NCBI RefSeq assembly: GCF_021249345.1
Contig: NZ_CP089588.1
Span: forward strand, 558,001 to 622,000
Direction: 5' to 3'
Origin: Halobacterium wangiae
Lineage (GTDB): Archaea; Halobacteriota; Halobacteria; Halobacteriales; Halobacteriaceae
Length of the DNA stretch: 64,000 bases
This document shows, one piece after another, positions 23,125 through 27,313 of the stretch (its first letter is position 1; each line of letters begins with the position of its first letter). Both the position numbers and the translations under genes were made by a program. The notes beneath the pieces were generated by a model. It saw only the letters and a program-made list of their open reading frames with translations. It was not told where the DNA came from and searched no databases.

Positions 23125-23712
23125 TCAGACGCCCGCGAGGAAGTTCCGGACCAGGTCGTGACCGGCCCCGGTCAGGACGCTCTCAGGGTGGAACTGTACG
23201 CACTCGATCGGGTGCTCGCGGTGGCGCACGCCCATCGGGAGGTCGCCGTCCGCGACGGTGGCCGACACCTCGAAGCAGTCCGGGACCGCGGTGCACGCCA
23301 GCGAGTGGTAGCGGGCCGCGGGGAACTCCTGGTCGACGCCCGCGAACACGCCCCGGTCGTCGTGGACGACGGGGCTGGTCTTGCCGTGAATCGGGGCGGG
23401 CGCGCGGCCCACCTCGCCGCCGAACTCGTACACCGCGGCCTCCATGCCGAGACAGACGCCGAGCGTCGGCACGTCCGGGCTCACCGCCCGCAGAACCTCC
23501 CGGGTGACGCCGACGTCGCGGTCGTTCTTCGGGTGGCCGGGTCCGGGGCTGACGACGATGGCGTCCGGGTCGACCTCTCGCACGTCCTCGAGACTCGCGG
23601 TGTTCTTCAGCACCGGCGTCTCCGGGCGTTCGCCGTCGACGCGCTGCTCGGAGACGTACTCCACGAGGTTGTACGTGAACGAGTCGAAGTTGTCGACGAA
23701 GAGCACTCTCAC
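23125..23712 (-). CDS. trpG: Anthranilate synthase, glutamine amidotransferase subunit
   Basis: Hydrolyses glutamine to give ammonia to TrpE for anthranilate formation. 195 residues, class I amidotransferase with nucleophile Cys87 (GVCLGMEAAV), His175 and Glu177 (VQFHPESVLTG) and oxyanion motif SPGPGHP. The residues after the catalytic Cys are Met-Glu where many homologues have His-Gln. It starts at GTG 23712, overlapping the trpE stop as GTGA, and ends the trpDFEG operon. Confidence 0.95.
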   Translation of the reverse strand: MRVLFVDNFDSFTYNLVEYVSEQRVDGERPETPVLKNTASLEDVREVDPDAIVVSPGPGHPKNDRDVGVTREVLRAVSPDVPTLGVCLGMEAAVYEFGGEVGRAPAPIHGKTSPVVHDDRGVFAGVDQEFPAARYHSLACTAVPDCFEVSATVADGDLPMGVRHREHPIECVQFHPESVLTGAGHDLVRNFLAGV

Positions 23713-25280
23713 GGCTGGACCTCCGGTTCCGGTTCGCGCTCGCGGATGCGCTCGACGGCGGCGAGCACGCCGTCCATCTTCGCCTCCGTCTCGTCGAACT
23801 CCGCGCTCGGGTCGCTGTCAGCGACAACGCCCGCGCCCGCACGCACGCGTAGGGTGTCCTCGCTCCCGTCGACACCCATCTCTATCGTCGCCGACCGGAT
23901 GGCGATGGCGAACTCCGCGTCGCCGGTCCACGAGAAGTAGCCGACGCCGCCGCCGTAGATGCCCCGCGGGGAGGCTTCGAGGGCGTCGATGTGCTCCATC
24001 GCGCGGACCTTCGGCGCTCCCGACAGCGTGCCCGCGGGGAACGACGCACGGGTGGCGTCGAAGCAGTCGGCGTCGTCTGCGAGCGTCCCGGTGACGGTGG
24101 ACTCGATGTGCTGGACGTGGCTGTACTTCAGGACGCGCATGAACTCGGGGACGCGGACGCTCCCGGGTTCGCTGACGCGACGCACGTCGTTGCGCGCGAG
24201 GTCCACGAGCATCGCGTGTTCGGCGCGCTCCTTCTCGTCGGCGAGCATCTCGCCCGCGAGGCGGCGGTCCTCGACGGGGCTGGCGCCCCGGGGGCAGGTG
24301 CCCGCGATGGGGTTGTTCACCACGGTGTCGTCGTGCACGGCGACCAGCGTCTCTGGGCTCGCCCCGACGACGGTGCGATCGTCGTGGGAGAGCAGGAACA
24401 TGTACGGCGAGGGGTTCACGTCGCGGAGTGCCGCGTAGAGGCCCCGCGGGTCGACGTCACCGTCGAGTTCACGCGTGCGCGAGACGACCGCCTGGTACAC
24501 CTCGCCGTCGAACACTGCCTCCTTGGCCTTCGAGACGGCAGCCTCGTACTCCTCGCGTGGACCGGCGCGCTCGTCGGTGACGCGGAAGCCACCGAACTCG
24601 GGGTCGGGCGCGTCGGTGAGCGCTGCCTGCACGCGTTCGGCCTCCGCGCGGAGCGTGTCGTAGACGGCTTCCGGGTCGTCGTCGGCGCCGACGACGGGCG
24701 TGAACACGAGCGAGACGTCGCCCGTCGCGCGGTCGAAGACGAGCGTCCGCGTCGAGAGCACGAACTCCGCGTCCGGGAGCGGCGTCTCGGGGCGCTCGAC
24801 ACCCACCTCCTCCAGCCAGAGGTCGTACACCGCGTCGTAGGCGAGGAAGCCCACGAGACCACCGTCGAGCAACTGGCGGTCCTCGTCGGGGAAGCCGCGG
24901 CGCTCGACGTTCGGCAGGACGTCACGCAGGCGGTCGAGGACGTCGCCCTCACCTGCGCCGAGCAGGTCAGCCGCGCGCTCGTCCCGGAGGCGCTCGACGT
25001 CGGTTCCCTCGGGCCCCACGGTGACGACGGCGGCGGGGTCGTAGCCGACGAACGAGTAGCGGGCGTGGCGGTTCTCTGTGGCGCTCGAAGGCCGGAACGC
25101 GCCGTCCGGGTCGCTGGCCGCGGTCTTCTCGGCGCTCTCCAGCAGGAAGCCGTACCGTCCCTCGGTGAGCGCGTCGTAGGCCGTCAGTGGCGTCACGTCG
25201 GTGTCGAGGGTGGCCGCGACCCGGAGGACCGCCGGCCCGTCGCCGGCGAGGTCCGCGAACGCCGAGCGCGTGGTGTCCAT
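23709..25280 (-). CDS. trpE: Anthranilate synthase component I
   Basis: Converts chorismate and ammonia to anthranilate, the first step of tryptophan synthesis. 523 residues. The N-terminal LLES tetrad (Ser49 in YGFLLESAEK) is the classical site of tryptophan feedback inhibition, so allosteric control is likely kept. The chorismate-binding domain shows NPSPYMFLLSH, GASPETLV, NPIAGTCPRG and TLSGAPKVRAMEHID. ATG 25280 overlaps the trpF stop (TGATG). A much longer open frame upstream is antisense noise over trpF and trpD. Confidence 0.96.
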   Translation of the reverse strand: MDTTRSAFADLAGDGPAVLRVAATLDTDVTPLTAYDALTEGRYGFLLESAEKTAASDPDGAFRPSSATENRHARYSFVGYDPAAVVTVGPEGTDVERLRDERAADLLGAGEGDVLDRLRDVLPNVERRGFPDEDRQLLDGGLVGFLAYDAVYDLWLEEVGVERPETPLPDAEFVLSTRTLVFDRATGDVSLVFTPVVGADDDPEAVYDTLRAEAERVQAALTDAPDPEFGGFRVTDERAGPREEYEAAVSKAKEAVFDGEVYQAVVSRTRELDGDVDPRGLYAALRDVNPSPYMFLLSHDDRTVVGASPETLVAVHDDTVVNNPIAGTCPRGASPVEDRRLAGEMLADEKERAEHAMLVDLARNDVRRVSEPGSVRVPEFMRVLKYSHVQHIESTVTGTLADDADCFDATRASFPAGTLSGAPKVRAMEHIDALEASPRGIYGGGVGYFSWTGDAEFAIAIRSATIEMGVDGSEDTLRVRAGAGVVADSDPSAEFDETEAKMDGVLAAVERIREREPEPEVQP

Positions 25281-25927
25281 CACGACTCGACCACCGCGTG
25301 GCCAGCGTTCGCGTTCTCCACGAACGCCCGCACTGCGTCGTGGTCCTTCTTGCCGCCCGCGACCTCGACGCCCGAAGCGACGTCCACCGCGTACGGCTCC
25401 GCCGCGTCGACGGCGTCGGCGACGTTCTCCGGCGTGAGTCCGCCCGCGAGCACGACTGGCGAGTCGACCGACGCGGCGAACTCCCGGGTCGCGTCCCAGT
25501 CGTGCGTGCGGCCGGTTCCGCCCCCGCCACCGGCGTCTGCCGAGTCGACGAGCAGCGCGTCGACGACGTCGTCGTACCGACCAGCGCCGGGGTCCCCGGC
25601 GTCGACCGACTTCAGCACGGCTGCGTCCGCCTTCGCCGCGACGTAGGCCACGTCGCCGACCGGCAGGTCGCCGTGCAACTGGACGACGTCCGGGTCGACG
25701 CGGTCGACGAGTTCGACCGCGCGCTCGGGCGTCGCCGGCATCGTCACGAGCACCGTGGTGACGAACGGCGGCGCGGCGGCGACGAGGTCCGTGGCCCGCT
25801 CGACGGCGACCTCCCGCGGCGTGTCCACCGGGACATCGGAGATCACGCCGACGGCGTCGGCGCCGGCCGCGGCGGCCGCTCTCAGGTCGGTCTCGGAGGT
25901 CAGCCCGCAGATCTTCACGCGCGTCAT
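25280..25927 (-). CDS. trpF: Phosphoribosylanthranilate isomerase
   Basis: Amadori rearrangement of phosphoribosylanthranilate in tryptophan synthesis. 215 residues, TIM barrel. The N-terminal VKICGLTSETDLRAAAAAGADAVG contains the catalytic Cys, VVQLHGD the substrate contact, VDALLVDS the catalytic Asp region, and the phosphate is bound by VLAGGLTPENV and VDVASGVE. It overlaps trpD (ATGA) and trpE (TGATG). Confidence 0.96.
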   Translation of the reverse strand: MTRVKICGLTSETDLRAAAAAGADAVGVISDVPVDTPREVAVERATDLVAAAPPFVTTVLVTMPATPERAVELVDRVDPDVVQLHGDLPVGDVAYVAAKADAAVLKSVDAGDPGAGRYDDVVDALLVDSADAGGGGGTGRTHDWDATREFAASVDSPVVLAGGLTPENVADAVDAAEPYAVDVASGVEVAGGKKDHDAVRAFVENANAGHAVVES

Positions 25928-26943
25928 TGCGTCGCCGCGTGGGTCCCCTGGAGGGTTCTGAGCGTCTCCTCGGCGTCGCCAGAATCGATCGCCTCGCGTG
26001 CGCGCTCCGCGCCCGCTTCGAGCGAGTCGGCCTCGCCGGCGACGTAGATGGCGGCGCCCGCGTTCGCGAGTACGATGTCGCGTTTCGGGCCGGTGACGTC
26101 GCCGGAGACGATGCCGCGGAGGTCGCGGGCGTTCTCCTCTGGCGAGCCACCGGAGACGGCCGTTATCGGGGCTTCGTCGAGGCCGAAGTCGGCGGGCGTG
26201 ACGGTGTACTCCGCGACGGTGTCGCCGTCGACCTCCGCGACGGTCGAGGGGCCGTGGAGCGCGAACTCGTCGAGGCCGTCGCCGTGGACGACGAGCGCGC
26301 GGTCGACGTCCATGTGCGAGAGCGCGCGAGCGAGCGTCGGGACGAGGTCGGGGTCGTAGACGCCGACGACCTGGGCGTCTGCGCCCGCCGGGTTGGTGAG
26401 CGGCCCGAGGAGGTTGAAGATGGTCCGCATCTCGAGTTCCCGGCGCGGGCCGATGACCGCCTTCATCGCGGGGTGGAACGCCGGCGCGTGCATGTAGCCG
26501 ATGCCGTGGTCCTCGACGAGCGCCTCGACCGCCGTGGGGTCAGCGTCGAGGTCGACGCCGACCGTCTCGAGGACGTCTGAACTGCCCGAGGAGGAGGAGA
26601 CGGAGTAGTTGCCGTGTTTGGCGACGGGGACGCCGGCACCACCCACGACGAGCGTCGAGGTGGTGGAGACGTTGATGGTGTCGTAGTCGTCGCCGCCCGT
26701 GCCGCAGGTGTCGACCAGCGGCTCGCGGTCGGGGTCGATGGTGCGCGCGGCGTCGCGCATCCCTTGTGCGAACCCCGCGAGTTCCGTCTCCGTCTCGCCC
26801 TTCGCGCGGAGCGCCGCGAGCAGCGCGCCGATCTGGGCGTCCGTTGCGTCCTCGAAGATTCGGGTGACGGCGTCGCGGGCGTCGGCGAGGCTCAGGTCCT
26901 CGCCGTCCGCGACGCGCTCGGTGTACTCGTTTATATCGGACAT
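25924..26943 (-). CDS. trpD: Anthranilate phosphoribosyltransferase
   Basis: Transfers phosphoribose from PRPP to anthranilate. 339 residues. PRPP-binding motif DTCGTGGDDYDT (residues 78-89), then VAKHGNYSVSSSSGSSDVLE, and the C-terminal EGAERA-type helices. First gene of trpDFEG; in haloarchaea trpCBA is usually a separate operon, and none of those genes is in this window. The promoter just upstream carries a TATA box and two TGTACA boxes, so control by tryptophan is likely. Confidence 0.96.
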   Translation of the reverse strand: MSDINEYTERVADGEDLSLADARDAVTRIFEDATDAQIGALLAALRAKGETETELAGFAQGMRDAARTIDPDREPLVDTCGTGGDDYDTINVSTTSTLVVGGAGVPVAKHGNYSVSSSSGSSDVLETVGVDLDADPTAVEALVEDHGIGYMHAPAFHPAMKAVIGPRRELEMRTIFNLLGPLTNPAGADAQVVGVYDPDLVPTLARALSHMDVDRALVVHGDGLDEFALHGPSTVAEVDGDTVAEYTVTPADFGLDEAPITAVSGGSPEENARDLRGIVSGDVTGPKRDIVLANAGAAIYVAGEADSLEAGAERAREAIDSGDAEETLRTLQGTHAATQ

Positions 26944-26966
26944 CGATGTTCTATTCCGGGTTGTGG

Positions 26967-26993
26967 TGTACAAGTCTGTACAACGCCTTAAAG
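26967..26993 (-). promoter_or_regulatory. trp operon promoter: TATA box with two TGTACA boxes
   Basis: CTTTAAGG (26986-26993, minus strand) is the TATA box, about 45 nt before the trpD ATG. Two copies of the palindromic hexamer TGTACA (26977-26982 and 26967-26972) follow downstream, 10 bp centre to centre. TGTACA is the published TRP-box sequence bound by the repressor TrpY in Methanothermobacter. Position between TATA box and start site suits repression. Confidence 0.75.
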
Positions 26994-27080: not shown

Positions 27081-27155
27081 GGGTTGGTGGTCTAGTCAGG
27101 CTATGACACCTCCTTGACATGGAGGAGACCGGCGGTTCAAATCCGCCCCAACCCA
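27081..27155 (+). tRNA. tRNA-Val (GAC)
   Basis: 75 nt, no intron, no encoded CCA. Acceptor GGGTTGG/CCAACCC, anticodon arm CCTCC-TTGACAT-GGAGG giving anticodon GAC, T arm GGCGG-TTCAAAT-CCGCC, discriminator A. CTATACCC around 27042-27049 may be its TATA box. A damaged copy of its 3' end lies 150 bp downstream. Confidence 0.95.
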
Positions 27156-27218
27156 CTTCTACGAAACTCACACCGGCGAGCACCGCGTAGCGTGTGCGAC
27201 GCCCCGAGAAGACGGTGA

Positions 27219-27313
27219 ATGGGTTCGGGGATTCGAACCCGGGACGTCGCAGCGGCCGAGCGAAGCGAGGCCGACCATCTTCCTCGGGGTCACAATCCGC
27301 CCAGCCCACTTCT
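27219..27313. pseudogene. tRNA-like remnant with duplicated tRNA-Val 3' end
   Basis: Bases 27294-27313 repeat the tRNA-Val 3' end and following bases (27140-27160) with one deletion and one substitution. At the other end (27223-27245) the minus strand reads like a tRNA T arm, CGGGTTCGAATCCCCG plus AACCC. Between them is a stem-loop (CGGCC at 27253-27257, GGCCG at 27269-27273). No full cloverleaf can be folded on either strand, so it is not called as a tRNA. Confidence 0.5.

Follow-up and report, generated by a model that had tools for sequence, protein, structure and literature searches.

How archaea regulate their tryptophan genes is known for few species, and the regulators involved (TrpY and Tar) are unrelated. 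TGTACA is the TRP-box consensus published for TrpY, a protein that in Methanothermobacter controls its own gene via TRP boxes, is said to block TBP at the TATA box of trpE and whose residue W2 is reportedly its only tryptophan, a point attributed to Xie and Reeve in 2005; a role for charged tRNA has also reportedly been discussed for trpY of this genus. In Methanothermobacter, trpY is divergent from trp. The TrpY of Thermococcus kodakarensis shares 42% identity with that of Methanothermobacter and shows no binding to the trp promoter of its own species; the haloarchaeal homologues form a separate branch listed as unexamined (PMC6737238). Among haloarchaea, the trpD1FE1G1 and trpCBA-OE1472F operons of Halobacterium salinarum are induced when aromatic amino acids are missing (PMC4162585), and the trpCBA promoter of Haloferax volcanii is described in PMC13147458 as not tightly regulated.

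The locus analysed here belongs to Halobacterium wangiae and lies in a window of 64,000 nucleotides, this being the whole stretch of DNA considered. Its features are the following:

26986..26993, minus strand: TATA box CTTTAAGG of the trpDFEG promoter, TTAA being kept at the equivalent place in relatives
26977..26982, minus strand: TRP box 1, TGTACA, array position 0, an exact hexamer with G2 invariant in 79/79 haloarchaeal loci
26967..26972, minus strand: TRP box 2, TGTACA, array position +10, an exact hexamer with G2, C5 and A6 invariant in 79/79
26957..26962, minus strand: array position +20, AACCCG, very degenerate, with only C5 invariant in 79/79
26947..26952, minus strand: TRP box 3, AGAACA, array position +30, degenerate here, with C5 and A6 invariant in 79/79
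25924..26943, minus strand: trpD, anthranilate phosphoribosyltransferase (Pfam PF00591 and PF02885), ATG at 26943, a start kept in relatives
25280..25927, minus strand: trpF, the open reading frame after trpD, used as the trpF query
23709..25280, minus strand: trpE, an open reading frame with the LLES feedback motif at 25134-25145
23125..23712, minus strand: trpG, an open reading frame used as the trpG query

The operon thus runs on the minus strand in the order trpD, trpF, trpE, trpG, and its boxes 1 and 2 are separated by GACT (TGTACA-GACT-TGTACA on that strand), giving a 10-bp step. A TATA box followed by two exact hexamers 10 bp apart before trpD had already been described in the initial annotation, rightly and with the right coordinates, as had the feedback motif of TrpE, which is present at 25145-25134. 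Given the TATA box at 26986-26993 and the usual archaeal spacing, the transcription start is expected near 26963, which would leave boxes 1 and 2 in the stretch from TATA box to start and place box 3 near the 5' end of the RNA. The box at +30, the three-box array of trpCBA, the probable tnaA site and the conservation throughout the phylum go beyond that annotation. Separately, directly after the tRNA-Val(GAC) gene at 27081-27156, window positions 27217-27310 contain stretches like tRNA 3' ends and T-arms (ggttcggggattcgaacccgggac; caatccgcccagcccactt), which received no ARAGORN call and are perhaps remnants of integration at this tRNA gene.

To evaluate conservation, the 100 bp preceding the start codon were scanned in 80 named haloarchaeal trpD loci for the sequence closest to TGTACA-N4-TGTACA. 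It had no more than three mismatches in 79 of them, against about 5% of shuffles, and no more than two in 60, against about 0.6%, its position being mostly -39 or -40 from the start codon. Within the host family, all 25 scoreable promoters (a count that leaves out L124, cut by a contig edge) showed at most two mismatches, at -39 or -40. Exact pairs at trpD were displayed by Halobacterium, Halorubrum, Halonotius, Halomarina and Halosegnis, the consensus outside these genera being TGTACnGATTTGTaCA. Noticeable periodicity was exhibited by the C at box position 5, which recurs each 10 bp in 75, 79, 79 and 79 of 79 rows (positions 0, +10, +20 and +30, respectively), and the third box, degenerate in the window version AGAACA, has the consensus nGTaCA at +30 in other haloarchaea. 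Conservation of the paired hexamers upstream of trpD in relatives, on which the initial annotation had made its reading depend, is thereby borne out.

Within the window TGTACA occurs 16 times, against 2.4 in dinucleotide shuffles; since 10.4 copies are already expected from a higher-order Markov estimate, a single TGTACA is unremarkable, and lone hexamers were dropped as evidence because higher-order composition explains most of the 16. Throughout the 3.11-Mb genome, TGTACAN{2,6}TGTACA has two occurrences, one at trpD and another, with 9-bp spacing, in an unrelated promoter, the trpD pair being the sole exact one with a 10-bp step. Sites with at most two mismatches number 18 in the genome, against 11 in a reversed-pattern control, and the other two-mismatch sites are therefore mostly chance. 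The 9-bp pair, TGTACAAACTGTACA (L002:1501-1515, G000:C1:2945509-2945523), is located between the gene of a small HTH-like regulator and that of a TauE-like permease. When considered as a TRP site it was judged to be different, and it probably belongs to another regulator.

The array is restricted to Trp genes. The trpCBA operon is separate from trpDFEG, with trpC at C1:2188920, and trpC promoters of the family carry three boxes at 0, +10 and +20 (TGTACA-N4-nGTnCA-N4-TGnACA), the last adjoining the start codon and the C of every box being invariant in the 26 rows of the aligned set; boxes 2 and 3 are weak in the host genome. In the other families of the phylum, represented by 48 genomes, trpD was found in 45 and regions of ~7 to 12 kb were taken from 38, of which 35 contained a usable first trp gene and 30 of these came from genomes with a TrpY-family gene. 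The leading gene varies outside haloarchaea, being trpD, trpC or trpE. In the 30 regions from TrpY-bearing genomes, a 10-bp pair with at most two mismatches was detected in 22, against 0.3 in shuffles, and a 20-bp spacing in 17, against 0.5 expected, other spacings giving 0 to 6. Three or four boxes in series follow a TATA-like sequence in many of these non-haloarchaeal fronts and, as the boxes stand before whichever trp gene leads, the array tracks the front of the operon and not the trpD gene. At the annotated trp front of some lineages (L287, L292, L295 and L335) no array was found; there the sequence ahead of the gene resembles coding DNA, so that the actual promoter may be situated further up. 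Taken together, this points to trp control by TRP boxes as an ancient trait of the phylum, retained through operon splitting and rearrangement.

Presence of a TrpY homologue, which the initial annotation had named as a point to check, is confirmed by a single gene of the NCBIfam TrpY_fam model (NF053754) in the host genome, encoding 167 aa at G000:C1:1177710-1178210 and scoring 236.4 bits against the curated cut-off of 180. All 20 aligned members match the same model, and all of them contain a C-terminal Pfam ACT domain (best 4.1e-8), the host member being slightly under the gathering score. The N-terminal domain is presumed to bind DNA; HTH_11 gave a weak match there in 1 of the 20 members (E 0.079), residues ~40-62 are well conserved, and single and profile searches against solved structures gave no meaningful match. 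W2 is the sole tryptophan in all 14 distinct members that bear it, as reportedly in Methanothermobacter TrpY, which favours a regulator of the TrpY type. Across loci L219 to L247 it is kept in the methanogen members and in one haloarchaeal exception (L225), the other haloarchaeal members being listed with F2; 18 of 19 haloarchaeal-type members are devoid of any tryptophan, and the host protein also shows F2 and no Trp. The host gene adjoins hisB, far from trp, no TGTACA was found before its start, and a TrpY-family gene was looked for near haloarchaeal trpD and was absent. This separation from trp, together with the lack of W2 and of a TGTACA box of its own, counts against the protein being the regulator, as does the want of a confident helix-turn-helix match in its N-terminal part.

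TrpY_fam exceeded the cut-off in 140 of 148 genomes of the phylum, and its distribution parallels that of the boxes. Two genomes of one family (G087 and G096, 93-95% complete) are without a TrpY over the cut-off and have trp fronts without boxes; since they share a family, they were counted as one evolutionary event. Among less complete genomes, G105 (78% complete) has neither a full TrpY match nor boxes, G151 (63% complete) shows a weak site only, and G146 (76% complete) keeps the box pair without a full match, which counts against the association, although the missing match may be an assembly gap. In another family, two genomes (L342 G085:C5 and L341 G103:C83) have the TrpY-family gene divergent from and adjoining a trp operon headed by trpC, and a good TGTACA pair was not found between the two; this absence where TrpY adjoins trp likewise counts against.

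The only one-mismatch 10-bp pair of the genome is intergenic, before the tryptophanase gene tnaA (C1:1268972). These boxes (L184:3473-3498, G000:C1:1268972-1268997) consist of a one-mismatch pair overlapping a second, two-mismatch pair, and begin 62 bp ahead of the tnaA start codon, farther up than a TATA box would be expected. G014 and G013 of the genus have the tnaA pair in common, with 1 and 2 mismatches, respectively. As a general haloarchaeal feature the site was rejected, being present, among 59 genomes of the order, in three promoters of the genus Halobacterium only, with a weak match or none in other lineages. The tryptophanase promoter of Haloferax is tryptophan-inducible according to passages of PMC10448506 and PMC8305020, which name no regulator for it. 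One TrpY-family protein might then work both ways from the same box, repressing trpDFEG and trpCBA, with their boxes downstream of TATA, and activating tnaA, with its boxes upstream of the promoter. This dual role is possible, weakly supported, and we regard it as rather doubtful. If true, it would explain the tryptophan induction of tnaA in Halobacterium, might extend to the Haloferax promoter p.tna, and would provide a candidate regulator for tryptophan-inducible haloarchaeal promoters.

That a conserved TRP-box operator array serves the control of trp is well supported, and we hold it to be very probable. The fuller reading, in which this operator answers to a Trp-responsive repressor and is most likely read by the TrpY-family protein, is the one preferred here and is considered probable, with more reserve. 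The initial annotation had put forward a TrpY-like or analogous repressor, a proposal that the conserved boxes and the TrpY-family gene support, binding of the protein to the boxes being what we infer from them. When tryptophan is plentiful, the protein would bind the boxes at trpDFEG and trpCBA, presumably with tryptophan as its ligand; boxes aligned along the same side of the helix would suit dimers placed side by side, and protein occupying the interval from TATA box to start would hinder TFB or RNA polymerase. The loose regulation described for H. volcanii trpCBA counts against the preferred reading.

Its main rival is an operator for tryptophan or aromatic amino acids read by a different protein, for instance LrpA2 (trh1) of the Lrp type, a reading that we consider unlikely though deserving of weight. 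TGTACA being the TRP-box consensus of TrpY, the phylum-wide range shared by the boxes and the TrpY family, with both missing in one family, and the linkage of TrpY to trp in the family of G085 and G103 all argue against LrpA2. Its transcript nonetheless rises 14.9-fold in H. salinarum without aromatic amino acids, and LrpA2 was proposed as regulator by the authors of that study (PMC4162585), although such induction could serve its own neighbours. The case for TrpY is also weakened by T. kodakarensis using the unrelated Tar, by the absence of binding of its TrpY to the trp promoter, and by the unexamined state of the haloarchaeal branch (PMC6737238).

The remaining readings fare worse. Chance proximity of two copies of a frequent hexamer, as the 16 of the window might suggest, is already refuted by conservation and retains a negligible probability, the site being found in 79/80 loci and in unrelated operon orders. 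A repeat acting in the RNA as a leader structure, through attenuation or as a riboswitch, could draw on the self-complementarity of TGTACA and on the role that charged tRNA is said to have in discussions of Methanothermobacter trpY, but it is very improbable: with the start expected at ~26963, just past box 2, from the archaeal TATA-to-start spacing, boxes 1 and 2 would be outside the RNA, and a 10-bp phase suits DNA, not RNA. Less remote, yet still improbable, is that the hexamers belong to the core promoter, or to some other element specific to trp such as an activator site, and have no role in repression. Their rigid distance to the TATA box and start codon fits this, as does the fact that archaeal promoters are made of short spaced elements; however, the exact 10-bp pair occurs at no other promoter of the genome, the array precedes the first trp gene even where the operon order differs, repressor sites typically occupy such a place between TATA box and start, and aromatic amino acids lower both trp operons (PMC4162585).

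The preferred reading, a tryptophan operator recognized by the TrpY-family protein, offers a phased, phylum-conserved array and one candidate gene, and thus opens the question to direct testing in haloarchaea that are amenable to genetics. Regarding known systems, LrpA2 of the closely related H. salinarum is responsive to aromatic amino acids, and differs from TrpY in being of the Lrp family (PMC4162585). The p.tna promoter of H. volcanii, as presented in the passages cited above, is a tryptophan-controlled haloarchaeal promoter, and in Halobacterium the tnaA promoters have a pair of TRP boxes; the weakness or absence of this site outside Halobacterium makes a regulator shared with p.tna uncertain. 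Tar (TK0271) of T. kodakarensis also controls an archaeal trp operon, along with other aromatic operons, as an activator that is not a TrpY homologue. The closest likeness is with Methanothermobacter thermautotrophicus: TGTACA in the trp promoter, a TrpY-family protein in the genome, and a trp operon repressed with Trp, to which the published aromatic-amino-acid response of H. salinarum corresponds here. G085 and G103 further resemble it in having the TrpY-family gene divergent from trp. On the contrary, in the host this gene is unlinked to trp and lacks both W2 and a box of its own, two operons carry an array each, and the boxes are downstream of the TATA box, the TrpY of M. thermautotrophicus reportedly blocking TBP at the trpE TATA box itself. 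The putative TRP-box system described here differs from the known one in linkage, autoregulation and operator layout.
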